NCBI GenBank assembly: GCA_011523485.1
Contig: WTGR01000433.1
Coordinates: forward strand, 1-13,224
Direction of reading: 5' to 3'
DNA: 13,224 nucleotides
Source of the DNA: Acidobacteriota bacterium
GTDB taxonomy: Bacteria > Acidobacteriota > Vicinamibacteria > Vicinamibacterales > UBA8438
A program made the position numbers and the translations under genes. This document shows, in pieces, positions 1-12,732 of the stretch. The first letter of the stretch is position 1, and each line of letters begins with the position of its first letter. Below the pieces are notes generated by a model, which saw only the letters and a list, made by a program, of their open reading frames with translations, did no database searches and was not told the DNA's origin.

Positions 1-30
1 CAAGCCCAGTCGACGGCACTTCAGAAATGA

Positions 31-272
31 TCACTTGTTCGAGCTCGCCAACACGATCGTCATGTCGACGTCGCCGTCGGCGTCGTGTGCCTGGCTCTGC
101 TCGGGATCGGCCGCACGAACTTGCGATAGGCGTCCTCGATCCGTCTGCGCCCGCGCTGCCACCGCTTGAGCGCGTCGACGATGGCGCATCCTTCGGCAGT
201 CCACTCGCGGCCGGCGATGGCCATCTCCCGCTCGATGATCTGGACGTCGCCCACCACGGCGTACCCATCCAC
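31..272 (-). CDS. Small charged hypothetical protein (frameshifted), 3' part of the chimera
   Basis: The non-Calx-beta tail of the preceding ORF could be a gene of its own, starting at the GTG codon at 272 (VDGYAVVGDVQIIERE). Its frame runs through a helical basic segment (ALKRWQRGRRRIEDAYRKF) and then deteriorates after about position 118 (PIPSRARHTTPTATST). The neighbouring frame from there reads RAADPEQSQAHDADGDVDM and ends in LASSNK with a stop at 31-33, which is far more protein-like. A single-base indel near 118 would join the two into an approximately 80-residue protein. No Shine-Dalgarno site is visible before the GTG. I do not recognise the family. The length and composition fit small phage or plasmid genes, which is inference only. 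Confidence 0.35.
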
Positions 273-740
273 CGGGTTCGGGGAGGCGGAGAGCGTGACC
301 GTCGAGGTGCCGTCGTTGTCGTTGATGGTCACCGCGGCCGCCCTCGGCGTGGTGGCGGAGATCGGCGGCGTGGTCTCGGACGGAAGCTCCAGCGTCACCG
401 TGAGCCTCTCGTCGCTCTCGACGTTCGTGTCTTCGAGAATCGTGATCGCCACGGTCTTGGACGACTCCCCGGCCGAGAACGGAATCGCGACGTTGCTCGT
501 GCCGGTCGAGGTCTGCCAGTCCGTCCCCCGCACCGCGGTGCCGTCCGTCGTGGTCGCCGCCAGCCCGGGGAAGTCGACGGCCAGCATCCCGGTGAGGTTG
601 ACCGTCAGGGTCACGCTGCCGGCGCCCTCGGCGACCGTGAACGTGGCGGACGAAAACGAGAAGGTCGTCCGGTCGTCGTCGTCGATGTTCAGGTACAGCC
701 TTGCCGACGCCTTCGGGTGATGTGTTTCGGCAGACGCCAA
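60..740 (-). CDS. Calx-beta domain protein fragment with unrelated C-terminus
   Basis: Residues about 24-144 form one Calx-beta repeat: the strand TFTVAEGAGSVTLTVNL, then IPFSAGESSKTVAITILED, ESDERLTVTLEL, and the closing AAVTINDND. These beta-sandwich repeats usually occur in large secreted or surface proteins and bind calcium. A second repeat starts (TVTLSASPNP, residues 147-156) but stops abruptly. From residue 157 the protein becomes helical and charged (VQIIEREMAIAGREW, ALKRWQRGRRRIEDAYRKF), unlike any Calx-beta repeat. There is no signal peptide. Upstream, the phrase RTLTLTI, typical between such repeats, lies in another frame near 765-785, so the surface gene has also lost its 5' part to a frameshift. 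The ORF is best read as an internal scrap of a large surface protein fused by rearrangement to another small gene. Calx-beta identity is secure; existence of the fusion product is not. Confidence 0.65.
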   Translation of the reverse strand: MASAETHHPKASARLYLNIDDDDRTTFSFSSATFTVAEGAGSVTLTVNLTGMLAVDFPGLAATTTDGTAVRGTDWQTSTGTSNVAIPFSAGESSKTVAITILEDTNVESDERLTVTLELPSETTPPISATTPRAAAVTINDNDGTSTVTLSASPNPVDGYAVVGDVQIIEREMAIAGREWTAEGCAIVDALKRWQRGRRRIEDAYRKFVRPIPSRARHTTPTATST

Positions 741-984
741 TCGTCAGCGTGAGGGTCCGTCGCGTCCGCGCTCGTGTTCCGGTTCGCGCGGCAACTCGCG
801 GTTCGGCGTGGGTGCGCGCCCGGGCGCGGCGGCTCTTCTTCGGGCATCGGACGCCGACGCTCGGGGGCGCGTTCGGCGCCTCGTCCAGGTGGGACATCGG
901 TTCCGGATCCGGGTCGGCCCCGGCCAGGCGGTGCGGCTCCGGGCGTCGTCCGGGCAGCTCCTTGTCCGGTTCGTCGTCGTTCTT
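741..984 (-). other. Gap with frame-broken, Pro/charge-rich remnant
   Basis: No intact gene. Directly after the TAG at 985-987, the same minus-strand frame stays open and reads KNDDEPDKELPGRRPEPH, then PMSHLDEAPNAPPSV, which resembles coding sequence. Other frames give EEEPPRPGAHP and NRELPREPEHERGRDG before a stop at 744. The stretch may be the decayed 3' part of the upstream hypothetical gene followed by the decayed 5' part of the Calx-beta gene. Confidence 0.3.
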
Positions 985-1656
985 CTACGGCGGCGGCTTG
1001 TCCGGTCCACGGCGCCCGCGGTCGCGTTCGTGTTCCTCGCACCAGCGGTCTGCCTCGTGGTAGTAGCGGTGGCGCTCGCGGTCGAGCGGCTCGTGGTCGT
1101 TCTCCTTCTCGAGGTCGAGGACGCGTTCGTGCTCGAACTCGTGCTCACGCTCCGGCCACAGCGGGTACAGCCGGCGCTCGATGGTCTCGACGTACTGGAG
1201 GAACTCCTGCATCCGCTCCGGATGCTCCTGGAGCCGGTGCCCAGCTTCGCGCAACCGATCACGCTCCGGCGGATCCCAGCCGAGCCCGGTGCCGTTGGTG
1301 CCGCGGCTGTTGACGATGCTCGCGGCCAGCGCGTCGAACGCCTTCTCGGCTTCCGTCAGCGGCGGGCCGTATTCGTTGCACAGCGCGCCGCGCGCGGCGG
1401 CGTACAGCTCGTCGTGCGCCCGGGCGTTCTCGTCCCGTTCGCAGTCGGGTACGCGCAGCACCATGCGGTGCGGTCCGTCAGGCTCGGCCTCGAAGTGGTC
1501 GCGGTGGTTCTCGACGGATACGACCAAGTCTGGTCGCCGGCGCACGGTCTTCGTGTCGCCGACCGGTCCCGTGTACCGTATCCCGTGGACGCGCCCCACC
1601 TGGATCAGGCCGAGCAGCCCACGGCGGTCGAGGGTCTGGGTGCAGTCGCGCAGCAT
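985..1656 (-). CDS. Hypothetical charged protein, unknown family
   Basis: A 223-residue protein I do not recognise. The first about 75 residues look like a compact beta-rich domain (GLLGLIQVGRVHGIRYTGP, then PDLVVSVENHRDHF and GPHRMVLRVPD). The middle is helical (LTEAEKAFDALAASIVN), and the last about 80 residues are extremely charged, rich in Glu, Arg and His (PEREHEFEHERVLDLEKEND), probably coiled coil or disordered. The ATG at 1656 lies 5 nt after the stop of the P-loop/beta-helix gene, so the two are probably translationally coupled. The frame is open and protein-like further upstream (NDAPSAEEHARTLTR) to an AUU codon at 1707, preceded by AAAGGAG at 1719-1725, so the true start may be there. 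After the TAG at 985 the frame continues to look coding for about 30 codons. Confidence 0.6.
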   Translation of the reverse strand: MLRDCTQTLDRRGLLGLIQVGRVHGIRYTGPVGDTKTVRRRPDLVVSVENHRDHFEAEPDGPHRMVLRVPDCERDENARAHDELYAAARGALCNEYGPPLTEAEKAFDALAASIVNSRGTNGTGLGWDPPERDRLREAGHRLQEHPERMQEFLQYVETIERRLYPLWPEREHEFEHERVLDLEKENDHEPLDRERHRYYHEADRWCEEHERDRGRRGPDKPPP

Positions 1657-1661
1657 GCGCG

Positions 1662-2780
1662 TCAGCGTCCTCGCGTGCTCTTCGGCCGACGGCGCGTCGT
1701 TGCTAATCGCTGCGTTTGCTCCTTTCCGGTTCTCGTGCCGACCAGCTCGGCGCCCTTCCCGGCCTCGATGCGCGTGCCCGCCGGCACTCGCGTTCCGTCC
1801 TCGATTTGTGCTCCGTCACCGATGTGGCAGTCCTGCTCGATGTGGCATCGTTTTCCGATCCGGACGTCGTCGCCGATTGTCGTGTTCGCGTCGATAGAGG
1901 CGCGCTCGCCGATTTCCGTGCGGTCGCCGATGCGGCACCCGTGTCGGATGACGCTGGCTTCGCCCAGGACGACTCCTGCCCCCGTCGTGCAGCGCGTTCC
2001 CACCTGGGCGTGGCGCCGCAGCGTGTTCGCGGCGCCGAGCCTCGTCCATTGCTGGACCACTGCGTACGCGCTGATTCGCGTCCGCTCGCCGATCGTCGCA
2101 TAGCGCGCGATGTCGGCGTGCCGCCCGATGCGGATGCGTGTTCCGAGCCGGGCTCTGGGGTTGACGTGCGCCCGTGGGTGGATCGAGTTCGGCTGCGGCC
2201 GGCGCACGCTCTCGCGGTTCCACGCCTCCAGCACCTTGGCGGTTACCGGCTCGGCCCATGTGCCTGTCCCGGGCTCCTGCTCGTCTGCTCGCTTCCGCCG
2301 GTCGATCCGGGCTACGAACCGCGGTTCTGCCGCCGTGTCCACGCACGTGAGCGCGGTCAGCTGCAGGGCGTGCGTTGCCACATTGCGCATCAGCTGCTCG
2401 GCCGCTTCCTTGTAGAAAACTCCGGCATTGCCGCCGTGCTTCCTCTGTGCTTTGGTGATTCTCGTCTGCACTGTGGCCGGGTCGGCGGTGTGCACGAGCA
2501 CTGCGATCACCGGCACCTTCGCGGCGGCCGCGCTCGCGAAGAGCACGCGTCGCCAAGTCGCGTGCGTGAACCGTGTCTCTATGACCTTCCCGGCCGGGTT
2601 CCGCAACGCATCGTCGACGTGGGTGTCTGCGGTCGCCCTGCCTCGCATCCGGATGCGCCGCTTGGTCCGACCGGTCACCTCGATCGCGCGTGACGGAAGC
2701 TGCGGTGGTCGGGTCTCTTCCCAGTACGTCTTGCCGGCCCCGGCCGTTCCGATCAGCAACGTGAGGCAGTCCTCGTTCAT
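1662..2780 (-). CDS. P-loop kinase/ATPase fused to a left-handed beta-helix (hexapeptide repeat) domain
   Basis: 372 residues with two clear parts. Residues 1-160 form a P-loop NTPase: LTLLIGTAGAGKT places Walker A at residues 11-18. VIETRFTHATWRRVLFASA followed by VPVIAVLVHTADP matches the strand-helix-strand plus lid layout of small kinases of the AAA_33/zeta-toxin/polynucleotide-kinase type. Residues about 199-345 are tandem hexapeptide repeats (RLGTRI, TIGERT, EIGERA, TIGDDV, RIGKRC, HIGDGA), the signature of left-handed beta-helix acyltransferase-like domains. No catalytic acyltransferase histidine can be assigned, so the helix may be a trimerisation or binding scaffold. The start ATG lies 10 nt after the metallophosphoesterase stop, and overlaps (ATGA) the stop of an alternative frame of that gene. 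I know of no characterised protein with this architecture. Substrate unknown. Confidence 0.75.
   Translation of the reverse strand: MNEDCLTLLIGTAGAGKTYWEETRPPQLPSRAIEVTGRTKRRIRMRGRATADTHVDDALRNPAGKVIETRFTHATWRRVLFASAAAAKVPVIAVLVHTADPATVQTRITKAQRKHGGNAGVFYKEAAEQLMRNVATHALQLTALTCVDTAAEPRFVARIDRRKRADEQEPGTGTWAEPVTAKVLEAWNRESVRRPQPNSIHPRAHVNPRARLGTRIRIGRHADIARYATIGERTRISAYAVVQQWTRLGAANTLRRHAQVGTRCTTGAGVVLGEASVIRHGCRIGDRTEIGERASIDANTTIGDDVRIGKRCHIEQDCHIGDGAQIEDGTRVPAGTRIEAGKGAELVGTRTGKEQTQRLATTRRRPKSTRGR
1719..1725 (-). promoter_or_regulatory. Shine-Dalgarno site implying an AUU start at 1707
   Basis: On the minus strand AAAGGAG stands 11 nt before ATT AGC AAC GAC, which opens 17 protein-like codons in frame with the hypothetical gene normally started at 1656. 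No ATG, GTG or TTG lies in the right window. Either AUU is used, as in infC, or a base has changed. The site lies inside the 3' end of the upstream gene. Confidence 0.3.
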
Positions 2781-2790
2781 TGCGCTTCGG

Positions 2791-3426
2791 CTATCCGCTC
2801 GGCGGTCGTTCCCTTGTACGTCCTGCCTGCCAGCAGTCCTGACGCCAGCCGCGCACGTCGGCGGGCGCCAGCGGTTTGTACTCGGTGTGCTCCGCGCACG
2901 CGTTGATCCGCGGCCCAGGGTACAGCGGCACGTTGTTGTGCACGTGTCCGTACACGTTGGCGTGCCCTTCGGGGAACGGCCCGAACCCGAGGTGCGCGAC
3001 GATCAGCGGTGGCGTCGAGCGTATCACCGCCCCCATCGCGCACCGGTCGACCCCGGTTTCCGCCGCGCCGCCCTTGCAGTCGAAGTCGTGGTCGCCGAGC
3101 ACCAGCCACTTGGTGCCGGGCGCCTGTTCCCACCACTCCTGGTGGTGCTCCTGCAGACAGCCATCGACGCTCACGTCTCCCAGGCAGATGGTCGTGTCGT
3201 CCGCCTCGGCCGCCCGACACCAGGCATCGAGAAGCACGTGGTCCATCTCGTACGGCTTCTCGAACGGCCGGTCGAAGACCCTGATGGTGCCCATGTCGCC
3301 CAAGTGCAGGTCCGACCAGATCCAGATCGCCTCGTCCGATCCTTCGCAAACGATCGGGCCGCGTTCACGGGCCTGCCGGATCAGTGCTCGAGCCTGCCGC
3401 TCGTGCATGGATGGTGTCTCGTCCAT
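2791..3426 (-). CDS. Metallophosphoesterase (calcineurin-like)
   Basis: 211 residues carrying the binuclear-metal signature in order: SDLHLGD (D39, H41), CLGDVS (D84), GDHD at 111-114 where the family usually has GNHD, AHLG (H145), and YGHVHNN (H161 and H163), followed by INACAEHTEYKPL, a tail common in phage and plasmid phosphoesterases. It should hydrolyse phosphomono- or diesters in the cytoplasm; substrate unknown. I chose ATG 3426 because GGAGGTG stands 9 nt before it. A GTG at 3564 would add 46 residues and overlap the upstream small ORF. The C-terminus looks frameshifted: the annotated frame ends TRERPPSG, whereas the adjacent frame reads TYKGTTAERIAEAQ and ends in a TGA overlapping the next gene's ATG. 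The gene is next to and probably co-transcribed with the P-loop kinase. Confidence 0.85.
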   Translation of the reverse strand: MDETPSMHERQARALIRQARERGPIVCEGSDEAIWIWSDLHLGDMGTIRVFDRPFEKPYEMDHVLLDAWCRAAEADDTTICLGDVSVDGCLQEHHQEWWEQAPGTKWLVLGDHDFDCKGGAAETGVDRCAMGAVIRSTPPLIVAHLGFGPFPEGHANVYGHVHNNVPLYPGPRINACAEHTEYKPLAPADVRGWRQDCWQAGRTRERPPSG

Positions 3427-3523
3427 CGACGCGAGCACCTCCGGTCGGAGCAGCTGCTGCAGCTCCTCGAGCGTACAGCCTCTGCAGCCGGGCCGCGGCT
3501 GCCTCGTACCCCCTCCTTGGTTC

Positions 3524-3672
3524 TCAGCGGTTGTCCGATCCGTTCCCCGTGCCGCCGCTGCCACAGAACGTCCGGCCCTTGTGCACCCACGGCCGAAGCC
3601 GGCCCCGGACTCGCCACCCGACCGCGTGCAGCTCGCTCACCAACTGCGCCCAGGATTTCCCGGAGCCATCAT
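3524..3672 (-). CDS. Small hypothetical protein, probable one-base frameshift
   Basis: The segment WAQLVSELHAVGWRVRGR followed by RPWVHKGRTF is convincingly protein-like (amphipathic helix, then short strands) and ends in a TGA at 3524. In frame, the only usable start is GTG 3640, giving 38 residues. However, ATG 3672 forms a perfect ATGA overlap with the stop of the preceding ORF. Reading from it gives MMAPG and then needs one extra base in GGGAAATCC to enter the WAQLVSEL frame. The restored protein would have about 49 residues. I do not recognise the family. The layout W-x-x-L-x-x-x-L-x-x-x-G-W recalls small phage proteins and, distantly, HicA toxins, but the HicA catalytic His context is absent. 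Confidence 0.4.
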
Positions 3673-3866
3673 CCGACGTCGATGTCGTCGCGACCGTCGG
3701 AACCGACGTGCGGCACCGAGCGCACGGCCGCCCCGAACAACTCCCGCTGCCGCAGCGCCGCGTCCACCTCGACCGTTGTCGCCGCGCGGAACCCGCCGCC
3801 GTCGTCCACCTCGACCCCGAACAGCCCGCGGCCACGACCGAGCACGCGCCAGCGATGTTCAGGCAT
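3669..3866 (-). CDS. Small hypothetical protein
   Basis: 65 residues, reading MPEHRWRVLGRGRGLFGVEV, then a strand/helix pattern with AATTVEVDAALRQRELFGAA, ending in an acidic DGRDDIDVG. Its TGA overlaps the ATG of the next small ORF by the classic ATGA, which supports both reading frames. GGGAAGG abuts the ATG too closely to be an ideal ribosome site. The frame is open and protein-like upstream (ERRAEPNGRRAVRDHDRC) without a start codon, so the true start may be upstream and damaged. Function unknown; it is the first intact member of the minus-strand block leading to the phosphoesterase and kinase. Confidence 0.4.
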   Translation of the reverse strand: MPEHRWRVLGRGRGLFGVEVDDGGGFRAATTVEVDAALRQRELFGAAVRSVPHVGSDGRDDIDVG

Positions 3867-4003
3867 CCTTCCCGAGCAGCGATCGTGGTCCCGGACCGCC
3901 CTCCTGCCGTTCGGCTCCGCCCGACGTTCCCCAGCCGGCGACGCCCCCGGACCACGACCGCGAGTCCCTCATTCACATCTTCCCGGTCAACGACGCCGTC
4001 GGA

Positions 4004-4252
4004 TCAGTGCTGCAGCCTGCCCGCCACCGACGGAGGAGCGACTTTCGCTTTCGCCGCGGACCAGGTACGCGCACGGCTCATCATCTTCCACGAGGGCAGC
4101 TCGACGCCCTCCTGGCGTAGCCACAAATGAACCTGCCGAATGCTGCCGAACCCGGCGAACTTGCGGAACACCAGCGCGATGGCCTCTTGCACGCGCCGAT
4201 CCGGATCGATCCTGGAGCGCATATTGCCGCCCTCGGCACTCGTGATTACCAA
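4004..4252 (-). pseudogene. Serine recombinase fragment (Recombinase-domain N-terminal part)
   Basis: Residues 14-53 read RIDPDRRVQEAIALVFRKF, then GSIRQVHLWLRQEGVELP, the conserved start of the DNA-binding Recombinase domain (PF07508 type) that follows the catalytic resolvase domain of serine recombinases. The catalytic domain with its active-site serine is absent upstream. After ELP the sequence diverges from the family (SWKMMSRARTWSAAKAK) and stops after 82 codons, where full-length enzymes continue for hundreds of residues. The nominal start is a TTG. It is a relic of a mobile element, placed between a BrnA-type antitoxin and the small-ORF block. Identification of the segment is firm; it cannot be active. 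Confidence 0.75.
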
Positions 4253-4289
4253 ATCGTGCGGACCTAGACCGCGCGTCTCCTCCGGGCGT

Positions 4290-4481
4290 TCAGGCGACGT
4301 CGTGTTTCGCGATCCATTCGCGAAGGGCCGCGTCGATGCGCGTCTGCCATCCGCGACCGCCCGCCCGGAAGTGCTCGATCACGTCCCGCGACAGGCGGAT
4401 GGTGGTCGACACCTTCGGATTGGCGCTCCGTGGCCGGCCCCGGCGAACGGTCGCCCCAGCGAACTTCTGGAGCGGCGTCAA
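4290..4481 (-). CDS. BrnA-type antitoxin without a visible BrnT toxin
   Basis: About 63 residues from a TTG at 4481: RRGRPRSANPKVSTTIRLS, then DVIEHFRAGGRGWQTRIDAA and LREWIAKH. This is the C-terminal DNA-binding part of the BrnA antitoxin family: a basic GRP(K/R)SANPK stretch, a beta-strand TTIRLS, then a ribbon-helix-helix-like GWQTRID segment. In BrnTA modules the toxin BrnT, an RNase, is encoded immediately upstream. Here upstream sequence is instead a Calx-beta remnant, read in the same frame to a GTG at 4568 (HVIEHVEKWWQAPRVPGF). No BrnT-like WDxxKxxxNxxKHG motif is seen within the window. It is therefore an orphan, possibly truncated at its N-terminus and fused to surface-protein sequence. 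Confidence 0.7.
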   Translation of the reverse strand: MTPLQKFAGATVRRGRPRSANPKVSTTIRLSRDVIEHFRAGGRGWQTRIDAALREWIAKHDVA

Positions 4482-4790
4482 CCGCAGCTCTCGCCCCGCG
4501 ACACGGCCCCCGAAGCCCGGCACCCGCGGCGCCTGCCACCACTTCTCCACGTGCTCGATCACGTGCACCGCCGCCGCCCGCGCCGAGCCAACGGCCCTTG
4601 CGGCAGCGGATCCCGATGCTCGATCGTTGCCGTGGTCTCGCCGTCCGTCAGCCGCCCCGACGAGGGTCTCGACAGCAGCGTCTTCTCGCCCTGCCGTGCG
4701 CGTCGTCGAGCACCGAGACTTCGATCCGCTCCATCGACTCGCCCGCCAGGAACGTCAGCGTGCCGCTCGTAGCCGTGCGTATCGTGCCCG
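4482..4790 (-). pseudogene. Calx-beta surface protein, C-terminal remnant with frameshifts
   Basis: Three pieces in different frames make up the end of a Calx-beta protein: ATSGTLTFLAGESMERIEVS with VLDDAH (about 4770-4690), then GEKTLLSRPSSGRLTDGETT with ATIEHRDPLPQGPLARRGR (about 4690-4585), then AAAVHVIEHVEKWWQAPRVP with GFGGRVAGREL (4580-4483). In intact proteins GTLTFxAGE, VLDDAHDEGEETL, LTDGEATGTI and DPLP lead into the linker VHVVEHVEERLQAPR. At least two indels separate the pieces, and the last runs straight into the antitoxin. Degraded repeat-like sequence (YGPGTIRTATSG) precedes them. This remnant is the C-terminal end, yet lies 5' of the internal repeat at 60-740 on the same strand, so the two are not simply one interrupted gene. 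Confidence 0.65.
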
Positions 4791-5120
4791 GGCCGTAACC
4801 AACGTGTCGTCGATCCCGCGCTTGGACAGGGACGGCCCTCTCTACGTCTTTCCGCCCGAATCTCTGCATCATCGTCATGACCCGACGTCTTCCAGGCAGT
4901 GTTCGTCTGCCGGTCCGGATCCTCTCAGATCCTTCCGTCGGACGCTCCTCGCGGGGCCGCAAGAACCCGTCGAGCCGGACAGCCGAAACCGCACTGGACT
5001 CAATGCGTGGGCAGCACGGGCTCGCCGCGGGTGAGGGAGCGCGCCGACCCGCACGTCCCACCGCCCGTCCAAACCGTCCCATCAGCGCCCGCGGTGTCCC
5101 GTGCCGGATACGCTTCGGCG
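4791..5120. other. Intergenic region without recognisable gene
   Basis: I see no convincing coding frame or RNA gene here. The open frames on both strands are low-complexity Arg/Pro translations. The last 12 bases hold TACGCT (5109-5114), a TANNNT-type -10 element 6 nt before the ATG of the following gene, compatible with a leaderless transcript. No -35 match is evident. Confidence 0.4.
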
Positions 5121-5699
5121 ATGGCAAAGCAAGACGACGAGACCTACCGGGACCAAGCAGGCCGGCGGCGCCGCCGACATTTGGCGTCTCCTGAGGAACG
5201 CGACGCCCGTGACGTCGAGGCGCGCCGGTTGCGCGTCGTCGAGCGCCTGAGCCTTCGCGAGATCGCGGTCCGACTCGGGTGCGGGCGCGGGACGGTCGAG
5301 CGCGCCGTCAGGAACGCCCCGCCTCCCAACCGGATCATCCGCGGTGAGCGGATAGACGGGAGGCCAGTCCTCACCATCGACGGACAGCCCTTCGAGTGGC
5401 ACGATGCTCCGGACGTCACCGAATGGAGCCCAACAGGCATTGAGTGGGGACACTTCGGTGCTGGGTCGAGACGCCTCGCCTTCACGATCCTGCTAGCGGT
5501 GACGGACCGACACGAGGCCTACATGTACGCTGCACGGTTCGCAGAAGGCTGTCTTGAACGGATTGGTGCAGAGCGCGAGCCGTGGGTCCTTACCACCGAC
5601 GAGGTGCGGGACTGGCTGGCGAAGTCCCGCGAGATGAAGGCGCAGACTGACGAGCCGCAGCCGCTGGACGTCAAGTCGGCGCCACGCTACCGTCCGTGA
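5121..5699 (+). CDS. HTH protein with DUF6166-like C-terminal domain
   Basis: 192 residues from ATG 5121 (MAKQDDETYRDQAG). An upstream in-frame start at 4899 would only add low-complexity sequence. Residues about 28-68 hold a helix-turn-helix of the sigma-4/resolvase type: RLRVVERLSLREIAVRLGCG followed by RGTVERAVRN. Residues about 72-180 match DUF6166: IIRGERIDGRPVLTIDG, then SPTGIEWGHFGAGSRRLAFT, then WVLTTDEVRDWL, where the family has SPTGFEWGYGGSGPxQLALALL and WTLTxxEI. DUF6166 proteins are small, of unknown function, and common on plasmids and phages. The combination suggests a DNA-binding regulator, which is inference. A TACGCT element 6 nt before the start and the lack of a Shine-Dalgarno site suggest leaderless translation. 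Intact and with coding-like codon use throughout. Confidence 0.8.
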   Translation: MAKQDDETYRDQAGRRRRRHLASPEERDARDVEARRLRVVERLSLREIAVRLGCGRGTVERAVRNAPPPNRIIRGERIDGRPVLTIDGQPFEWHDAPDVTEWSPTGIEWGHFGAGSRRLAFTILLAVTDRHEAYMYAARFAEGCLERIGAEREPWVLTTDEVRDWLAKSREMKAQTDEPQPLDVKSAPRYRP

Positions 5700-5741
5700 C
5701 GGTCACGCCGGGTCGGACGCGGTCTTTGGCGGTCTGCACCA

Positions 5742-5764
5742 TCGGGTCCGTCGTGCTGACCCGA
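5742..5764 (+). terminator. Possible hairpin terminator after the HTH/DUF6166 gene
   Basis: TCGGGTC and GACCCGA pair as a 7-bp stem with a 9-nt loop, 43 nt after the stop codon at 5699. No T-tract follows, so this is a weak candidate. Confidence 0.25.
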
Positions 5765-6285
5765 GAAGGCCCGGATGCTCCACTGTCAGCGCGCGTTCGC
5801 CACCCACAGGCTGCATCCACCGCCCCGTAATAGAGGTACCGACCGGCGAGTGTTGCTCTAGGCAATCGCCGTACGCGTCCATCTCGCGGACAGGGCAAGC
5901 GCTGACGGGACGGTACCCGGAGCCGATGAGACGATCGGGCCGGCAGGATGGGACACCTTCCCGGTACCCAGGCTGCACGGGCCGGCTGTCTTCTCCGCAT
6001 GGTCGCGAAGCCCCCGGTAGCCGGCCCGGGAACGGACGGTTCCGGGGCGATCTCGCAATCCCGAGTCGAACACATTGGGACGGCATCTTCGCCGATGGGA
6101 CGCTCGGCCCGCTTCCTTGGGACAGGCCTCACGGATGGACGGCGACGCGGAGCACGTCCTCTTGGGATCCCTGACCAACGTCAGCCGAACGTCCGACGTG
6201 GGGTGCCCTGTTCCAGACTCCGCCCGGCACATGGCTGCCGGCAACGCGGTGACCGAGCGGACGATGGCCTAGCGGCCGAGCAGCA
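5765..6285. other. Gene-poor interval with structured sequence
   Basis: About 520 bases without a frame I can defend. The minus-strand frames (153, 127 and 128 codons) and the plus-strand frames give translations rich in Pro, Gly, Arg and Ser with no recognisable domain, and none keeps a coding-like pattern throughout. The interval contains the inverted repeat described at 5979-6027 and a GGAAC/GTTCC hairpin just after it. No tRNA clover-leaf or group II intron domain V could be recognised. Confidence 0.4.
5979..6027. repeat. 9-bp inverted repeat
   Basis: GGGCCGGCT at 5979-5987 and its complement AGCCGGCCC at 6019-6027 are separated by 31 nt. A smaller hairpin with arms GGAAC and GTTCC follows at once. 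Part of an otherwise unexplained interval; it could be RNA structure or a degenerate mobile-element end. Confidence 0.35.
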
Positions 6286-6289
6286 TGCA

Positions 6290-6730
6290 CCTCGCCGACG
6301 ACGACATGCTCGGGCCGGTGGCGTAGCGCGTGCTGAACCAGGTTCCCGGATCGTCCCGCCTGGGCCGGCGAGGACCCAGGGTCTCGAATCGGAGGCCGTT
6401 GGCGCGCCGTAAGCCCCAGCTCCAGCGTGTCTTCGATCGAGATGACGCGGTCCTCGGTCGGCAGCAGCGACACCAGCGCGTTGAGCAGCCTCGCCTTGCC
6501 CGAGCCCGTGCCTCCGGACATCAGCACGTTGCGCCCGCCGCCGAGCGCGGCCGCGGTCTCCTCGACCACCGCCCGCCGCCGGCAGCGACCCCTTCGCGGT
6601 CAGCTCGTCGATGGTGAAGGCCCGGCCGCCGAAGCGGTGGATCGTGATGCCGCCGCCCGGCGCCACGGGCGGGCTGCACACCGCCACGCGAGAGCCGTCG
6701 GCGAGGCGCGCGTCGATGATCGGATCGGCA
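6290..6730 (-). pseudogene. CpaF/TrbB-type secretion ATPase remnant
   Basis: Pieces in three frames together give the core of a type II/IV secretion or conjugation ATPase: PIIDARLADGSRVAVCSPPV with ITIHRFGGRAFTIDEL (6728-6610), AVVEETAAALGGGRNVLMSG with GTGSGKARLLNALVSLLP and ISIEDTLEL (6590-6420), ANGLRFETLG (about 6410-6380), and NLVQHALRHRPEHVVVGEV (about 6350-6290). These hexameric ATPases power Tad/Flp pili or conjugation. Walker A reads GGTGSGKA, lacking the Thr/Ser that binds the Mg-nucleotide, and the sequence leaves the family after VVVGEV, before the GGEA and the histidine box. The N-terminal region is missing too. Several indels plus truncation at both ends mean a dead gene. CpaF versus TrbB cannot be decided. 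Confidence 0.75.
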
Positions 6731-6795
6731 GCCCGTGCTGGTCGCCGAACAGCGGGGATGAACGGATTCCCGCCCTTCGTGATACTGTCGCCGGC

Positions 6796-7035
6796 GTGGC
6801 ACCCGAGCCTGCCTCACCGCCCCGGCCGTTGCGCCTGACGCAGGCGCGGATCGGCGATCGGCTGCACGACGGCAACGGCGGCCTTGTCGAGGTTGTCAAC
6901 GCGTTCACCGCGTTCTCGGGCGCTGGCCAGCCGGTGCGTGCAGTCGACTACCACGTCGTCGGCCGTCCGGCGCGTTGCTTCCGGATGCTGTCGACTGACG
7001 CGGACGACGTCGCCCGGTGGCGGCGGGCGCTGTGA
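6796..7035 (+). CDS. Small hypothetical protein
   Basis: 79 residues from GTG 6796: LRLTQARIGDRLHDGNGGLV, EVVNAFTAFSGAGQPVRAVD and YHVVGRPARCFRMLSTDADD, ending ARWRRAL. It has a strand-turn-strand look with a short C-terminal helix. The upstream in-frame extension to 6427 covers the ATPase pseudogene and is not coding. TACTGT at 6783-6788 stands 7 nt before the GTG, a TANNNT-type -10 placed for a leaderless message; no Shine-Dalgarno site is seen. It converges on the next gene with only 5 nt between the stops. Family not recognised; similar size to genes of phage or plasmid accessory regions. Confidence 0.5.
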   Translation: MAPEPASPPRPLRLTQARIGDRLHDGNGGLVEVVNAFTAFSGAGQPVRAVDYHVVGRPARCFRMLSTDADDVARWRRAL

Positions 7036-7040
7036 CGGGA

Positions 7041-7253
7041 TCAGGTGGCTGCCACCGTGCGGTCGGCCTTCAGAGGAGCGCTGAACCCACCGAAGCAGGC
7101 TTCGTGGATCACTCCCCGACGCTGGCCGAAGTAGTGCCCTTCAACCCTACGGAGCAGGTGAGCGACGAGCTCCCACTGCTCGTCGCTCAGGATGTTCCGC
7201 AGGTAGGTGACTGCCAGATTGCGGCACAGCGGATCATTGACCGGCAGATCCAT
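7041..7253 (-). CDS. Small hypothetical helical protein
   Basis: 70 residues from ATG 7253 (MDLPVNDPLCRNLAVTYLRN); a TTG at 7277 would add eight. ILSDEQWELVAHLLRRVEGH and YFGQRRGVIHEACFGGFSAP are strongly protein-like, with two amphipathic helices, and the minus-strand codons show the expected third-position G/C, while the plus-strand frames look random. It is divergent from the following gene, whose ATG is only 52 nt away, so the promoters must overlap or lie inside the genes. No known domain recognised. Confidence 0.55.
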   Translation of the reverse strand: MDLPVNDPLCRNLAVTYLRNILSDEQWELVAHLLRRVEGHYFGQRRGVIHEACFGGFSAPLKADRTVAAT

Positions 7254-7305
7254 GTTGGCGCACAGCGTCTCGACCAACCCCCGTGGTCGATTGGAGGGCT
7301 GGACG

Positions 7306-7854
7306 ATGAGCGAAACCTACAATCCGACGATTCCCATCGAGGTCGGTCCAACGAGCCCGCGGATGCACATCACCGCAGAGCGAGCGCTCGACCTCCCCTG
7401 CAAGCGCAAATCTTGCCGCTGCTGCGGCGGCGGGAACGGGTGGTTCAGAGAGGCGCGCCAACCCCCGAACTGGCCGGAGGTCACCAACGAAGAAGGGTAC
7501 GGACCCCTGCTCGACCTGCTTGGCCGCAGCGGGCTCCGCGACGCACGGCCGGCACTGGCAAGGCTGGGGCACCCGGCCGCGGAGTATCCGCAGAGGGTGT
7601 GGGCCGCAACTCACGACCGAGCCGTGATCGAAATGATGTGGAAACAACTGCACGGCCCCTTCGGCTACCAGGCCACGGACCAGGCGGTCCCGGCGTTCTA
7701 CGCCGATGACATCCCCACGTCGTATCCCGACCAGGAGCTGCGCCTCCACTGGTGGGCGTGGCGACTGCGAAGCGTGGTGCCGACAGAAGGTCTCGCCGTC
7801 TGGGAGACCTGGCGGCGCGAATGGTGGGATGACCTCGTGCACCGCTTCCGCTGA
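7306..7854 (+). CDS. Conserved-looking hypothetical protein with Cys cluster and Trp-rich C-terminus (paralogue 1)
   Basis: 182 residues from ATG 7306, preceded by a good GGAGGG site. Near the N-terminus, after PRMHITAERALDLP, lies CKRKSCRCCGGGNGW, a likely metal-binding Cys cluster. The middle reads LLDLLGRSGLRDARPALARL and GHPAAEYPQRVWAATHDRAV. The C-terminus is rich in tryptophan: RLHWWAWRLRSVVPTEGLAV then WETWRREWWDDLV. A second copy lies inverted at 9364-9906, where the same blocks recur (HITGTTALNIPA, GLWGLRDARKGLAELGHPG, RVWAATYD, RLRWWGWRLRAVI, WDEWRKEWW). Two copies in one window mark this as a real, mobile-associated family. I do not recognise it and assign no function. Confidence 0.75.
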   Translation: MSETYNPTIPIEVGPTSPRMHITAERALDLPCKRKSCRCCGGGNGWFREARQPPNWPEVTNEEGYGPLLDLLGRSGLRDARPALARLGHPAAEYPQRVWAATHDRAVIEMMWKQLHGPFGYQATDQAVPAFYADDIPTSYPDQELRLHWWAWRLRSVVPTEGLAVWETWRREWWDDLVHRFR

Positions 7855-8102
7855 ATACCAGCAGCCCGCTGGACCCGTTCCCGCTGAAGCAGGTCACCGA
7901 GCGGGTACGAGATGAGCTGACGGTGGTTACCAGGGTCACGCAGTTCGACACCGTGAGCGTGCCGGACTGCGAGACCCGAACCCGAACACGATGGGGAACC
8001 GCGTCGCTCAGAGCTTCGAAGTCGACCCGAGACCCGCTCGGGGGCTACGAAACGGACGAGAGCGGCCATCTACCGGGAAACTCGCCCATGTTCCATAAAT
8101 GA
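7851..8102 (+). CDS. Possible small ORF with non-standard start
   Basis: The plus-strand frame from CTG 7851 to the TGA at 8100-8102 reads NTSSPLDPFPLKQVTERVRD and ELTVVTRVTQFDTVSVPDCE before a basic, low-complexity tail. The first half is convincingly protein-like, an amphipathic helix followed by strands. The frame opens after a TGA at 7830 and offers no ATG, GTG or TTG before codon 25. The CTG overlaps the stop of the preceding gene (CTGA), which would allow coupling. It may instead be a frameshifted piece. Family unknown. Confidence 0.3.
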   Translation: MNTSSPLDPFPLKQVTERVRDELTVVTRVTQFDTVSVPDCETRTRTRWGTASLRASKSTRDPLGGYETDESGHLPGNSPMFHK

Positions 8103-8250
8103 ATGCGCGGGTCCGGCCCTGCCGGGTGGAAACTCAGACGCCCTCCGGCTCGCCGAGCGGCATCCGGCGCCGGGCCGGCGACGCGACGAGCAGGGTGCAC
8201 GGCGCGGGTGATGACCAAGTTCCGCCGGGCTCGCCGATGAGTGTGCCTCC
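8103..8250. other. Short interval, nothing recognised
   Basis: No coding frame, hairpin or promoter-like element that I can support. It separates the plus-strand block from the minus-strand AbiEii block. Confidence 0.3.
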
Positions 8251-8445
8251 CTACCCGTGCCCGTATCTGCGCTTGTCGCCAGCCGCATCGCCCTGGCGGG
8301 CCGAGGAGGCCTGCGGGATCTGACGGGAACGCGTGCTCGCCGCCGAGGGCGCGGCGAGGACGTCGCGCGCGATCGAGCCGAAGTCATCGCCAAGGCGGTC
8401 CACGATGGCCTCGAACACGGTGACCACCTCAGATCGCGTCGTCAC
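8251..8445 (-). CDS. Small hypothetical protein
   Basis: 64 residues from GTG 8445. The first half, TTRSEVVTVFEAIVDRLGDD followed by FGSIARDVLAA, is a plausible pair of amphipathic helices with good third-position G/C. The second half is polar (SRQIPQASSARQGDAAGDK) and probably disordered. AGAAGG stands a few bases before the GTG in the 10-nt gap after the preceding mini-ORF. Function unknown; it is the last member of a tight minus-strand series behind the AbiEii remnant. Confidence 0.45.
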   Translation of the reverse strand: MTTRSEVVTVFEAIVDRLGDDFGSIARDVLAAPSAASTRSRQIPQASSARQGDAAGDKRRYGHG

Positions 8446-8455
8446 CTACCTTCTA

Positions 8456-8548
8456 CTATCGGCGGGACACCCTCCAGTGCGGCTCGCTTGGCGACGCCTT
8501 GCGGTACGCGTTGTCGCTCACCAGCAGCGGCAGTTCGCGCCTGGTCAT
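8456..8548 (-). CDS. Possible 30-residue ORF
   Basis: ATG 8548 overlaps the stop of the preceding 63-codon ORF as ATGA. The product reads TRRELPLLVSDNAYRKASPS then EPHWRVSRR and ends at TAG 8456, 10 nt before the next GTG. The spacing suggests a genuine coupled series, but the length is too short for any family assignment and it may be a scrap of a larger gene. Confidence 0.3.
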   Translation of the reverse strand: MTRRELPLLVSDNAYRKASPSEPHWRVSRR

Positions 8549-8736
8549 CGCGGGTAGTGCTTCCGGCCGTCGCGTTCCTGCGTCCTGCTCGTTCCGAGCG
8601 CTGGTTTCGGACTGTCGGCCGGCCCTGACGCCTCGTCGCCAATTCGCACCGGCCTGCGGTGGCTGCTGTCTCGTTCGACGTTTAGGCGGCTGATCCCGCT
8701 CTCGAGCAGCCTCCAGGCCAGATCTCGACGTCGCAT
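8545..8736 (-). CDS. Possible small basic protein overlapping the AbiEii 3' end
   Basis: 63 residues from ATG 8736, MRRRDLAWRLLESGISRLNV then a polar tail (RIGDEASGPADSPKPALG) ending RKHYPR. The first 20 residues form a plausible helix. It overlaps the AbiEii frame by 55 nt, so either this ORF or the last residues of AbiEii are spurious. Its TGA overlaps the next ORF's ATG. Confidence 0.3.
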   Translation of the reverse strand: MRRRDLAWRLLESGISRLNVERDSSHRRPVRIGDEASGPADSPKPALGTSRTQERDGRKHYPR

Positions 8737-9412
8737 CGGCGGATTACGCGTTCGCCGCGCATTCTCCGTCTCATGGCCGCCTTGCGGTCGGGTGTGAGAC
8801 TTGCCATCCACTCTTTGAGCTTCGCGGCGCTACTGCTCGTGATCAACTCCGGGCGCTCGTGCACGAGCCAGCCGGCGTCGTACAGGTCCCGCGGCTTCTG
8901 TCGCGCGCTCTCACCGATGACGGTCTGCAGCTTTCGCTCAGCGAGCTCGTGGTCGTTGTACACGTTGATTCCGTGCACCCGCTTGCATTTGCTCGTGTCG
9001 ATTCGGGTTGGGATCGATGCTCTGCTGCCCGCTTTGCGGTAGTCGATCGTCGTTTCGATCGTCTCTTCACTCTCGCGGTTCCGGACTTTGATCGTGTGAC
9101 CGTTCCCGGGTGCAGCCAGTCCCGACCGACGTGGTGTCGTTGGTCTGGCGCGGCCACGCCGATTGCCTGCTGGACTGTCTTGCGGACCTGGATGCGGCGT
9201 TGTCCCTCGAAGTCGAGGTCGGTCGACGGGCGCGGCAGGCCCATGCTCAGGCGCATCGCCGTGCCGCCTTTCAGCGCGCACGCGTTGCCTTGGGCATCCA
9301 TTGCGTTCTGGAAGCTCTCCCCGAGGCGCTTCATCAGCGCTTCGCGTTTTCGCTCCTCGTCCGTCAGGGTGATTTCCGGGTACCGCTCGGGGCGTTGTCC
9401 CACGGCCACCAT
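8682..9412 (-). pseudogene. AbiEii-type nucleotidyltransferase toxin, broken by one frameshift
   Basis: The first frame (ATG 9412) carries the AbiEii/AbiGii toxin signature: ALKGGTAMRLSMGLPRPSTD then LDF, with the metal-binding D-x-D at residues 65 and 67. Near 9106 the frame changes at CACCCGGGAACGG. The adjacent frame continues with TIKVRNRESEETIETTIDYR, then HELAERKLQTVIGESARQKP and RDLYDAGWLVHERPEL, the C-terminal Lys and RDLYD motifs of the family. These MNT-fold enzymes act as toxins in abortive-infection systems together with the transcriptional antitoxin AbiEi. No AbiEi is recognised here; the upstream gene is the Trp-rich paralogue, whose 3' end overlaps the toxin start. One inserted base would restore a protein of about 243 residues. 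Confidence 0.75.
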
Positions 9413-9906
9413 TCCTTGCGCCATTCGTCCCACAGGTCCCGTTCCGCTGCCGTTATCACGGCCCGCAGCCGCCACCCCCACCACCGCAGCCGAATCCATT
9501 GGTCCGGGTAGCCCAGCAGTCTCTGCAGTTCGTACTGGTCGAACGCTGGGTGTCTGGCCCCGGTCCTGACGTGTTCGGTGAGCAGTTCCCAGCTCTCCTC
9601 GATCACGGCTCAGTCATAGGTTGCGGCCCAGACCCGCTCGCGGCTGTCCGCTCCCGGGTGCCCAAGCTCTGCGAGTCCTTTGCGGGCGTCGCGAAGCCCC
9701 CACAGCCCGAGCCGGTCGAGCAGCCGCCCGTGTTTCTGCTCGGTCGTCAGATCGCGGTCGTCGAGCCTTTCCGGTCGGTGCGAGAACCATGTGCTGTGCT
9801 TGTGCCAGTCCCCGCCCATCCGGTACGTCGCGGGAATGTTCAGCGCGGTGGTGCCGGTGATGTGGCGCCGGGGCGTCGTCGGTACCAGTTCCACCGGGTA
9901 TTCCAT
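9364..9906 (-). pseudogene. Trp-rich hypothetical protein, paralogue 2, interrupted by an in-frame TGA
   Basis: Inverted paralogue of the gene at 7306-7854. Read from ATG 9906 (MEYPVELVPTTPRRHITGT) it matches block by block: GLWGLRDARKGLAELGHPG, RVWAATYD, then TGA at 9607-9605, then AVIEESWELL, LRLRWWGWRLRAVITAAERD and WDEWRKEWW to a stop at 9364. In the other copy the same place reads CAC GAC CGA GCC GTG ATC, so a single C-to-T change (CGA to TGA) separates the halves. The N-terminal Cys cluster of paralogue 1 is absent here (NIPATYRMGGDWHKHSTWF). The in-frame extension up to 10125 is Arg/Glu-rich and probably not translated. Its end overlaps the AbiEii start by about 49 nt, so the two were probably co-expressed. 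Confidence 0.7.
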
Positions 9907-10041
9907 CGCCGTGCTCTTCAGTTTACGTCGCCGATTCGACCGTGCGTCCGGGTTTATCCTCATGCCGGCCGGCTTTTTCGCTGGCTGGTGAGAGCGCTCC
10001 GCCGTCCGCGCGCCGGTATGCTGAGCTCGCAGAGTCTTGGC

Positions 10042-10242
10042 ATGGTTAACATCCTCGCTCTTGCCGGCACCCTCTTCTTCGCTTTCCCCTCGCCGGTCGC
10101 CGCCGTGACCATTCGTGTTCATCACGTCGACGCGCTACCTGGACAGAAGCGGCGGCACCAATCCGAAGGGACGTGCCCAGGCTCCGACGGATCCCCGCTC
10201 GGTAGACTTCCGCCCGACAACCGACGGTCGATGCAACAGTAG
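10042..10242 (+). CDS. Possible small secreted peptide
   Basis: From ATG 10042 the plus strand reads VNILALAGTLFFAFPSPVAA, a good signal peptide with cleavage expected near AA/VT, followed by TIRVHHVDALPGQKRRHQSE and a Gly/Pro/Arg tail to TAG 10242 (66 residues). An in-frame ATG at 10018 would add eight residues. The opposite strand of this stretch is an Arg/Glu-rich ORF extension that I judge non-coding. No Shine-Dalgarno site is clear. It could be a chance hydrophobic frame. Confidence 0.3.
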   Translation: MVNILALAGTLFFAFPSPVAAVTIRVHHVDALPGQKRRHQSEGTCPGSDGSPLGRLPPDNRRSMQQ

Positions 10243-10272
10243 AGCGGCGGCTTGCGGGCGCCCGAATTGCGG

Positions 10273-10572
10273 ATGGAGACCGAACCGGTGGAGACCAACG
10301 AGGGCCCTGGCGGGCAGCGGCCTGCTGGCGAAGATCCGTGTGCCAAGGGTACCCACGAGGTGATCCCGACCGGCGAGATCGTCACCGACGCCGGAACGCA
10401 GGCGCGTGCGGAGATCGACGAAGCGATCGTCGAGGAGTACGCCGAGCACCTCGCTGCAGATACCGCGCGCCGGCGTGGCGCAGCGCGAGTTCAGCCGTGC
10501 CCACGGCGACGCCATCGCCGCCGAGTTCGACATGGGCAAGTTCGGCTACCCGGTCGTCAATCACGTCGGTGA
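10273..10572 (+). CDS. ParB-like N-terminal fragment
   Basis: From ATG 10273 (a TTG at 10252 is also possible) the protein has a polar leader and then HEVIPTGEIVTDAGTQARAE followed by IDEAIVEEYAEHL. This matches the first strand, the GTQxR motif and the first helix of ParB/sulfiredoxin-like domains. After AADT the frame becomes an Arg-rich nonsense tail (RRRHRRRVRHGQVRLPG), while the next frame becomes protein-like with another ParB-like segment. The gene is thus truncated or shifted near 10460. TAGACT at 10202-10207 is a possible -10 element. Confidence 0.55.
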   Translation: METEPVETNEGPGGQRPAGEDPCAKGTHEVIPTGEIVTDAGTQARAEIDEAIVEEYAEHLAADTARRRGAARVQPCPRRRHRRRVRHGQVRLPGRQSRR

Positions 10573-10645
10573 CGTCAATTGGGTGATCGACGGTCAGCAT
10601 CGCGTCTACGCGCTGAAGCGGTTGCCCCGTTGGTGGAAGGTCTGA
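10475..10645 (+). CDS. ParB-like C-terminal fragment with DGQHR motif
   Basis: In the next frame, IPRAGVAQREFSRAHGDAIA then AEFDMGKFGYPVVNHVG and WVIDGQHRVYALKRL match the core of phage/plasmid ParB-like proteins, with the conserved DGQHR that in ParB is the nucleotide-binding GEHR/GERR box. The protein stops at 10645 after PRWWKV, earlier than relatives. GTG 10475 is a possible start; coding-like sequence (LQIPRAG) begins slightly earlier. It repeats the strand and helix already present in the preceding ORF, so the two are pieces of different ParB-like genes rather than one simply shifted gene. Confidence 0.55.
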   Translation: MAQREFSRAHGDAIAAEFDMGKFGYPVVNHVGDVNWVIDGQHRVYALKRLPRWWKV

Positions 10646-10674
10646 GCTCCGGAAGGCATTTCGGGGAAAGTGTG

Positions 10675-10890
10675 ATGCCTGAACAGCTCGACGCGCGGAT
10701 CGGCGAGGTGCTTGACCGGCTTGAGACGATTGAAGCCCGGCTCCTTCGGCTCGAGACGGGGCTCGCTCGCGGGTTCGCGCTGCTGGACGCGCGGTTGACG
10801 GCGACCGAGGCGCGCCTGGAGGCTGTCGAGATGCGCCTGTCGGACGGCACAGCGGAGGCCGAACCGGTAACGTCGTTGGATCGGCTGTGA
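10675..10890 (+). CDS. Small coiled-coil protein
   Basis: 71 residues from ATG 10675, with a GGGGAAAG site before it. Almost the whole protein is a heptad-repeat helix: LDARIGEVLDRLETIEARLL, RLETGLARGFALLDARLTAT and EARLEAVEMRL, followed by a short acidic tail. Such minimal coiled coils are common in phage and plasmid regions; no specific function can be assigned. It lies 29 nt after the ParB-like fragment and is probably co-transcribed. A cluster of hairpins follows its stop. Confidence 0.65.
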   Translation: MPEQLDARIGEVLDRLETIEARLLRLETGLARGFALLDARLTATEARLEAVEMRLSDGTAEAEPVTSLDRL

Positions 10891-10906
10891 CACCGTTTGG
10901 GTCGTC

Positions 10907-10920
10907 CGCCGTTTGCGGCG
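10907..10920. repeat. Short hairpin (CGCCG-TTTG-CGGCG)
   Basis: Perfect 5-bp stem with a 4-nt TTTG loop, 17 nt after the coiled-coil gene. It is followed by a weaker 5-bp pair ACGAG/CTCGT at 10921-10939 that ends in TTTCC. Confidence 0.4.
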
Positions 10921-10949
10921 ACGAGTGCTTTCTGCTCGTTTCCTGGTCT

Positions 10950-10973
10950 GTTCGGCGCCGGCCGGCGCCGAAC
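10950..10973. repeat. Perfect 24-bp palindrome
   Basis: GTTCGGCGCCGG is followed at once by its own reverse complement CCGGCGCCGAAC, with no loop. As DNA it could bind a dimeric protein or extrude a cruciform; as RNA it would fold with a few unpaired bases at the tip. Confidence 0.7.
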
Positions 10974-10991
10974 CTGTCGAGATGGCGTGTG

Positions 10992-11020
10992 ACGACGCCC
11001 GCCCCCTTGGCGGGCGTCGT
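10992..11020. terminator. Bidirectional hairpin terminator between convergent genes
   Basis: ACGACGCCCGCC and GGCGGGCGTCGT form a perfect 12-bp stem with the 5-nt loop CCCTT. It lies between the plus-strand gene ending at 10890 and the minus-strand lipoprotein gene ending at 11117. No T-tract, as is common in GC-rich genomes. Position and stability support termination from both sides. Confidence 0.6.
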
Positions 11021-11116
11021 ACCTGCACTACTTGCCGGAGATCATCCAGGCGTGGTGCAGTCGCTCTGCTTGGGCCTCTGGTGCTGCTGCGCCGGTCGCG
11101 TCCGCGGTTTCCCCCT

Positions 11117-11998
11117 CTACCGGCAGGTTCCGAAGTCGCTCGTCACGGTCTCGCCGTCGAAGGTCGCGCGCGTTCTCAGGCACACCTGGTGCCGGTACGC
11201 CTGATGGCTGCTTCTCGTTCCCGTCCTCGTCTCCAGCGTGGCGAGAGCCACGCGGCATAGGGCAGGAAGCCGCCAGCCGTAGTACATCTCGGGCGCCTCG
11301 CACGCGTCGGGCGGGATCGTGAAGGTGCACTCGACCGGCGTCGCTACCCCTGTCCCCGTGCAGCTGTTCACGTCGATATGTGTCCCGTAGCCGTTGGGGG
11401 CGTACGTTGCCGTCCATGGGTTAGTGCCGGCCCCCTGCCTGTTCGTCGTGTGTCCTGATCGTGAGAACCGGACGGTCACCACCCCGTCGCCGCTGTTCCT
11501 GGTCAGTTCCCAGCACCTTCTGCTCGGCCAGGTCGGACTCTCGGCGCAGTTGTTGACCTGCTCCCAGTTGTGGGGGTCCGTATCCTCGTGGGTCCAGCAG
11601 TTCGATCCCGAACAGCTCTGGACCTGCGTCCAGCTCCCCACCATTACCGGCTCGCTGTCGGCGCTCAACCAGTGGGTGTAGACGGTCTGCGTGCCCAGAT
11701 TCCTCACCGGAACGTTCGGGTCGGTCCAGGTTTCGTCGCCCAGGTCGTTCGTGACGTCGTCCGACGCTCTCCCTGTCGGGCTGTACATGGTGCTCGGCGC
11801 CAGCGCCGGCCCGCTCCCCCTGGCCATCTGTTCCGTGCTCGTGGTCTCGCCGCCGCCCGCTCCTGCCGGTCGGCTGGCCTGCGCCGCCTCGGCGGTACCG
11901 TCTGCCGGGCTCGGCGCTGCCGGCGTGGTGGGTGCGTCGTCGCAGGCCGTGGCCATGCCGGCGCACAGCGCGATCGCGAGGATCAATCGTGTCGTCAT
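11117..11998 (-). CDS. Secreted lipoprotein, unknown function
   Basis: 293 residues from ATG 11998 with GGAAAGGAAC before it. The N-terminus is a lipoprotein signal peptide (TTRLILAIALCAGMATAC): the hydrophobic core ends at A16-T17-A18 with C19 as the lipidated cysteine, followed by Asp-Asp. A linker rich in Thr, Pro, Ala and Gly follows to about residue 60. The mature domain holds several cysteines probably paired as disulphides (VQSCSGSNCWTHEDTD, VNNCAESPTW, RRCWEL, VNSCTGTGVATPVECTFTIP, DACEAPEMYYGWRLPALC) and looks all-beta. No known domain recognised. After the TAG the adjacent frame reads NLPVEGETADATGAAAPEAQ to a stop at 11028, so a frameshifted longer C-terminus is possible. The leader upstream can fold into hairpins. 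Confidence 0.8.
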   Translation of the reverse strand: MTTRLILAIALCAGMATACDDAPTTPAAPSPADGTAEAAQASRPAGAGGGETTSTEQMARGSGPALAPSTMYSPTGRASDDVTNDLGDETWTDPNVPVRNLGTQTVYTHWLSADSEPVMVGSWTQVQSCSGSNCWTHEDTDPHNWEQVNNCAESPTWPSRRCWELTRNSGDGVVTVRFSRSGHTTNRQGAGTNPWTATYAPNGYGTHIDVNSCTGTGVATPVECTFTIPPDACEAPEMYYGWRLPALCRVALATLETRTGTRSSHQAYRHQVCLRTRATFDGETVTSDFGTCR

Positions 11999-12096
11999 GT
12001 GGTGTTGTTCCTTTCCGTTCCGGGTTGGTGGCTGTTGGCTCGATTCCCTGTCGTTCCGACTGCGTCTGTCGTGACCTCCTCCTGGTCCCCCTTCCT

Positions 12097-12158
12097 AGTC
12101 CTGCGGGGCGCGTCGGCCGAACTGGCCGCACCCGCAGCGTTCCCTGCTCCGCAGGACT
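12097..12158 (-). repeat. 10-bp inverted repeat in the lipoprotein leader
   Basis: AGTCCTGCGG at 12097-12106 and CCGCAGGACT at 12149-12158 are perfect complements 42 nt apart. The loop contains a smaller GGCC-GAACT-GGCC hairpin. About 100-160 nt upstream of the lipoprotein ATG, it could be a structured 5' untranslated leader. Confidence 0.4.
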
Positions 12159-12188
12159 TCCTGCGCGCTCTTCGCTCGTACACCCCCA

Positions 12189-12212
12189 CTTGGAAAGGCG
12201 TTCTTGGAAGGC
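12189..12212. repeat. Near-direct repeat CTTGGAA(A)GGC
   Basis: CTTGGAAAGGC at 12189-12199 and CTTGGAAGGC at 12203-12212, 14 nt start to start. Possible paired operator half-sites in the divergent promoter region. Confidence 0.3.
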
Positions 12213-12246
12213 TCAACCGAACATGACCGGTTGCCGAACTCCCTGC

Positions 12247-12280
12247 GCGCCGGCCCGCTCGAAGGCTATCGAGCCGGCGC
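12247..12280. repeat. GC-rich compound hairpin
   Basis: Outer arms GCGCCGGC and GCCGGCGC enclose an inner CTCGA/TCGAG pair with a 6-nt loop. A three-base bulge (CCG) separates the stems on the left side. A stable structure 80 nt before the J-domain ORF. Confidence 0.5.
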
Positions 12281-12361
12281 TGCTCCCCTTGGCGGGCGTT
12301 CTGGTGGCCGGCCAGTCTCGTCCGCTCGGGTCGTGCCTCCTGGTCGGTCCTGAAGACACCG

Positions 12362-12674: not shown

Positions 12675-12732
12675 CGGGTTGGTGGGCGTCGACCTGTCGT
12701 TCGTGGACGTCCTCATTCTTCAGGAGGTGGTT

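Follow-up and report, generated by a model that had tools for sequence, protein, structure and literature searches.

An open reading frame (ORF) in a 13,224-nucleotide stretch of DNA from an Acidobacteriota bacterium (GenBank assembly GCA_011523485.1, contig WTGR01000433.1, positions 1 to 13,224; hereafter the window) encodes a genuine, rare fusion protein in which a P-loop kinase-like domain is joined to a hexapeptide beta-helix. The ORF and its parts are as follows.

1662..2780, minus strand: fusion ORF of 372 residues, with a kinase-like N-terminal domain, a linker, a hexapeptide beta-helix and a C-terminal tail
2301..2780, minus strand: P-loop kinase-like domain, residues 1-160, divergent and apparently of the AAA_33/polynucleotide kinase (PNK)/zeta class
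2727..2750, minus strand: Walker A motif GTAGAGKT, residues 11-18
2190..2300, minus strand: conserved linker with GTWAE, residues 161-197, with a helix at 177-193 in the predicted model
1752..2189, minus strand: hexapeptide beta-helix, residues 198-343, of about eight coils with uninterrupted hexads

The initial annotation of this DNA had placed the ORF correctly at 1662..2780 and had left its strand, which is minus, unnamed. A plus-strand reading of the same interval contains stops and was rejected. The guanine-plus-cytosine (GC) content of the fusion ORF at the three codon positions was 0.66/0.56/0.82, which is coding-like, in a window of 68% GC; its same-strand neighbours gave 0.70/0.51/0.83 and 0.78/0.44/0.89.

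A homologue search covering ∼5.8 billion proteins returned 33 proteins at E ≤ 0.001, the window's own included. Two of these, P0002 (56% identity) and P0003 (48%), are full-length relatives, each spanning 92% of the query. Both are metagenomic proteins, encoded on other contigs of 20.8 kb (P0002) and 47.6 kb (P0003), and carry both domains in one frame, as the initial annotation had proposed for the window protein. The remaining 30 of the 33 cover 19-64% of the query, and several of them are named LpxD/LpxA acyltransferases or have the corresponding domains. The clusters to which the three fusion proteins belong hold 2, 1 and 4 sequences, which disfavours a chance join. Pairwise identity among the three is 57-66% over residues 1-160, 51-65% over the linker (161-197) and 41-55% over the helix (198-340). 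The N-terminal domain is thus the better conserved part, and in the searches made here it is known so far only joined to this helix.

When residues 1-195 of P0002 were used as the query, with the C terminus left free and the targets limited to proteins of similar length, only the three fusion proteins were returned. A separate kinase-only gene, which had been named at the outset as the finding that would count against a fusion, did not appear: the N-domain alignment alone matched no protein of ∼105-336 residues at E ≤ 1 among 7995 candidates scored, in a search that had no positive control because its length limits leave out all three known members. No relative of the fusion was found in viral contigs, which were scanned twice, and a scan of genome contigs with P0002 gave two Rhizobium loci only, matching just helix residues 230-343 and 230-330. 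Matching records spanning 80% of the fusion query numbered 0/158 in the plasmid collection and 0/12 in the phage collection, and the N-domain alone had no match at E ≤ 10 in the latter. In the phylum to which G001 belongs, it also matched 0/398 genomes, a result that carries little weight because the search was made without a positive control. One match at E = 0.004, in one of two genomes examined, has a stop inside and was set aside.

The N-terminal domain resembles, with moderate confidence, the AAA_33/PNK/zeta class. The Walker A motif is conserved as GxxxxGK[ST] in all three proteins, with the versions GIPGAGKS and GTAAAGKS in the relatives, and AAA_33 (PF13671) was the sole Pfam family reported for their N-terminal parts. 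Alignment by hhalign of the three-row N-domain alignment with 31 AAA_33 sequences gave a probability of 94% and a score of 49.8, compared with scores of 41.7-43.1 for five control copies in which all but the first 24 columns were shuffled and probabilities of 0.1-1.4% for full shuffles (n = 5). The scores against adenylate kinase (15/25 loci usable by motif, 10 dropped) and APS kinase (25/25 loci used) were 36.5 and 26.3, respectively. The 6PF2K family had been intended as a further control, and its matches in 0/31 genomes yielded no control set. In a Foldseek search with a low-confidence model of the domain, the first 14 rows were PezT/zeta toxins, polynucleotide kinases and a Lichtheimia kinase. 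No solved structure matched the domain by sequence at E ≤ 10.

Several observations set the domain apart from typical members of this kinase class. All three proteins score below the Pfam gathering cut-off for AAA_33 of 27 bits, at 17.1 bits (E = 0.007) for the window protein, 25.1 bits (E = 2.5e-5) for P0002 and 23.5 bits (E = 7.7e-5) for P0003, and the match to the class is weak and owed mostly to the P-loop. In addition, an Asp after strand 2 that is present in 31/31 AAA_33 sequences is absent from the fusion family; hhalign places a gap opposite it, and MAFFT, in an alignment showing two of the three members, places Thr39 there. Of the kinase-like fold put forward in the initial annotation, the Walker A motif is present at residues 11-18 as described, and the fold itself is less firmly supported, given the subthreshold Pfam scores.

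In polynucleotide kinases and zeta the strand-2 Asp serves as general base, and its absence makes catalysis uncertain. Four other residues are likewise each found in 31/31 AAA_33 sequences: the Walker A Lys, the Ser/Thr next to it, the strand-3 Asp and the Arg that follows this strand. The fusion family retains the Walker A motif and the Arg (R77) and has Glu in place of the strand-3 Asp (E68, invariant in 3/3). Close to the site of the strand-2 Asp lies E34, which is invariant in all three fusion proteins and could substitute for the absent base. These changes bear on a second and rather unlikely reading, in which the N-terminal domain binds nucleotide without phosphotransfer and the fusion serves as an ATP-gated binding scaffold whose ligand surface is a His/Arg-rich ridge on coils 1-4. 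The loss of the strand-2 Asp and the Asp-to-Glu change on strand 3 would fit such a protein, as would the invariance of R220, H221, R226, R256 and H257 in 3/3 sequences, with H221 and H257 at an equal hexad position two coils apart. However, invariance in 3/3 sequences extends to the Gly-Lys of the Walker A motif and to E34, E68 and R77, suggesting that the nucleotide site is still under selection, and E34 could act as the base.

The hexapeptide repeats are far more regular than chance would give. Pfam Hexapep (PF00132), with a cut-off of 27 bits, matched the window protein with E = 4.8e-24 and 83.4 bits; the scores of P0002 and P0003 were 78.9 and 81.8 bits. From residue 200 to ∼333 of the window protein, in a single phase of six, the residue at position i is hydrophobic or small in 22/22 hexads and that at i+4 is small in 21/22; the counts were 22/22 and 21/22 for P0002, and 22/22 and 22/22 for P0003. 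The other five phases, which were the sole control for residue classes of our own choosing, gave counts of 1-19 at i and of 4-15 at i+4, each out of 21-22 hexads. The tandem hexapeptide repeats noticed at first inspection are thus borne out by both the family match and the register. No insertion loop interrupts the hexads. In P0003 the helix was seen by eye to contain, at residues 290-337, a stretch of 24 residues (four hexads) that is repeated almost exactly in tandem. A coil has 18 residues, so that an extra 24 do not add complete coils and the later faces of the helix are rotated in P0003.

The absence of an insertion loop together with the four-hexad duplication favours, with moderate confidence, a scaffold rather than an acyltransferase, and by analogy with its fold family the helix is probably an oligomerisation module, for which the trimer suggested in the initial annotation is a candidate form. 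Gamma-carbonic anhydrase, which has three zinc-binding His residues at a set spacing, was also considered and was rejected: the invariant H221 and H257 lie 36 residues from each other, but none of the three proteins has a His at 262.

It is distinctly improbable that the fusion is instead a bifunctional small-molecule enzyme, in which the kinase would phosphorylate, and the helix acylate, one shared substrate such as a sugar or nucleoside. GlmU is a two-part enzyme with a hexapeptide beta-helix, and the nearest profiles and solved relatives of the fusion helix are acyltransferases (LpxD, LpxA, NeuD, GlmU). L-fucokinase/GDP-fucose pyrophosphorylase (FKP) is another two-part enzyme with such a helix (PMC11982464). 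The acyltransferase profiles, however, fall far below their cut-offs; the best NCBIfam score of the window protein was 86.4 bits against the 207 required, and P0002 and P0003 were likewise under. The uninterrupted hexads and, in P0003, the rotated later faces also argue against acylation, and no sugar gene was recognised among the neighbours scanned.

The genes on either side of the fusion are as follows.

2791..3564, minus strand: upstream metallophosphoesterase gene, matching phrog_547 and weakly like PdeM
985..1656, minus strand: downstream ORF of 223 residues with no family match, starting 5 nucleotides past the stop of the fusion

The metallophosphoesterase gene ends 10 nucleotides before the ATG of the fusion, on the same strand. 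Its product matched phrog_547 with E = 3.6e-20 and Pfam Metallophos, under the cut-off, with E = 0.014. It retains the motifs DxH, GD and GHVH and has Asp for the Asn of GNHD. Relatives of this protein occur in 79/50,697 phage records. On IMG/VR contig L003 three genes share a strand and fit within 6 kb (7992-13674). They encode, in order, a related phosphoesterase (7992-8498, Metallophos E = 1.2e-10), an RNA ligase (10274-11401, RNA_lig_T4_1 E = 3.6e-18) and an AAA_33 kinase (12730-13674, E = 2.8e-24). Two other phage regions, those of KZY1 and DaisyDussoix, have no annotated kinase or RNA ligase within ∼6 and ∼4 kb, respectively. An end-repair-like context in one of three such regions is suggestive only. 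Relatives of the downstream ORF were not found in one scan of viral contigs, and neither the fusion nor the products of its two neighbours matched any PADLOC family at E ≤ 0.1.

We tentatively favour, with somewhat less than even confidence, a P-loop kinase-like domain on a scaffold beta-helix that is paired, as the kinase, with a phosphatase, the two working on the ends of nucleic acids or on nucleotides. In this proposal an N-terminal P-loop nucleoside triphosphatase domain, nearest to the PNK/zeta (AAA_33) kinases, would be arrayed on a regular left-handed beta-helix, and the fusion would most likely be co-expressed with the metallophosphoesterase from the gene just upstream. The kinase-like domain would transfer phosphate either to the 5' end of a nucleic acid or to a nucleotide-type substrate, while the partner phosphatase would remove phosphates, on the model of the kinase and phosphatase of Pnkp-type end-healing enzymes. 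The substrate and the phosphatase pairing are weakly indicated, by analogy and from one locus, the window being the only place where the kinase-like and phosphatase genes were seen to be adjacent. A more elaborate version, which we consider doubtful, is a new module for processing the ends of nucleic acids or nucleotides, in which a P-loop kinase that has diverged and uses a non-canonical base, perhaps Glu34, would be arrayed on a trimeric beta-helix and paired with a detached phage-type phosphoesterase, all carried on a mobile element with defence-like genes.

Elsewhere in the window we observed a Calx-beta domain protein (60-740, minus strand, E = 1.3e-19), a BrnA-type antitoxin (4290-4568, minus, Pfam E = 5.4e-20) and a protein (5121-5699, plus) with DUF6166 at E = 2.6e-16 and a weak helix-turn-helix match. 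A fragment of a type II/IV secretion ATPase (6129-6569, minus, T2SSE E = 1.3e-14) is 35-38% identical to its best ten plasmid rows, mostly annotated TrbB, suggesting a conjugative or integrative element. An AbiEii-like gene at 8682-9499 on the minus strand is apparently split: two ORFs that overlap and differ in frame each match part of AbiEii, with Pfam E values of 5.1e-7 and 6e-4. It is flanked by ORFs at 7207-7854 (plus) and 9610-10125 (minus) that are weakly like PADLOC AbiEi (E 7.9e-6 and 4.8e-9) and whose proteins are related to each other, with 44% identity over 95 residues. The split gene, lying on the same contig, could raise the suspicion that an assembly or sequencing error had also joined two genes to make the fusion, and this is very unlikely to the point of rejection, since the check proposed in the initial annotation found the identical join, with a linker conserved in all three fusion proteins, in P0002 and P0003, which are 48-56% identical to the window protein and lie on other contigs.

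A P-loop kinase on a hexapeptide helix appears to be undescribed, as the initial annotation had supposed: among the titles and abstract openings listed from the literature searched, whose coverage leaves out most subscription journals, none concerned a fusion between a left-handed beta-helix and a kinase of the P-loop or polynucleotide type. An active kinase would make the fusion a novel means of multimerising a PNK/zeta-type enzyme, and an inactive N-terminal domain would make it a novel scaffold that binds ATP. Simple assays on this short protein can separate the two readings.

Known AAA_33/PNK/zeta kinases share with the fusion the Walker A motif and the Arg that follows strand 3. In the low-confidence model, strands and helices also come in the order seen in these kinases, and the top Foldseek rows belong to them. 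The fusion differs from them in falling under the Pfam cut-off, in lacking the strand-2 Asp, in having Glu on strand 3 and in its attached beta-helix. Pnkp-type end-healing systems similarly place a PNK-like domain beside a phosphatase, an arrangement found in the window as two adjacent genes. In contrast to those systems, the phosphatase here is a separate gene, and no ligase or Hen1-type gene was recognised among the ORFs scanned. The Pnkp layout is not known to include a beta-helix. The Pnkp1-Rnl-Hen1 complex (PMC4411300) served for this comparison.

Helix residues 204-364 of the fusion match the phage family phrog_5353, which is of unknown function, with E = 1.4e-22. The match begins at position 33 of a 256-position profile, leaving no room for a preceding kinase domain. 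LpxA, LpxD, NeuD, GlmU and other hexapeptide acyltransferases also have the hexapeptide beta-helix, whereas the fusion scores far below the cut-offs of their profiles, lacks the insertion loop and has a different N-terminal domain. Nucleotidyltransferases fused to hexapeptide helices are textbook cases (GlmU, ADP-glucose pyrophosphorylase). In FKP the kinase is C-terminal, an order different from that of the fusion, and belongs to the GHMP superfamily. FKP resembles the fusion in that a single chain holds both a kinase and a left-handed beta-helix, and it differs in having a helix of three turns that is part of the pyrophosphorylase (PMC11982464).
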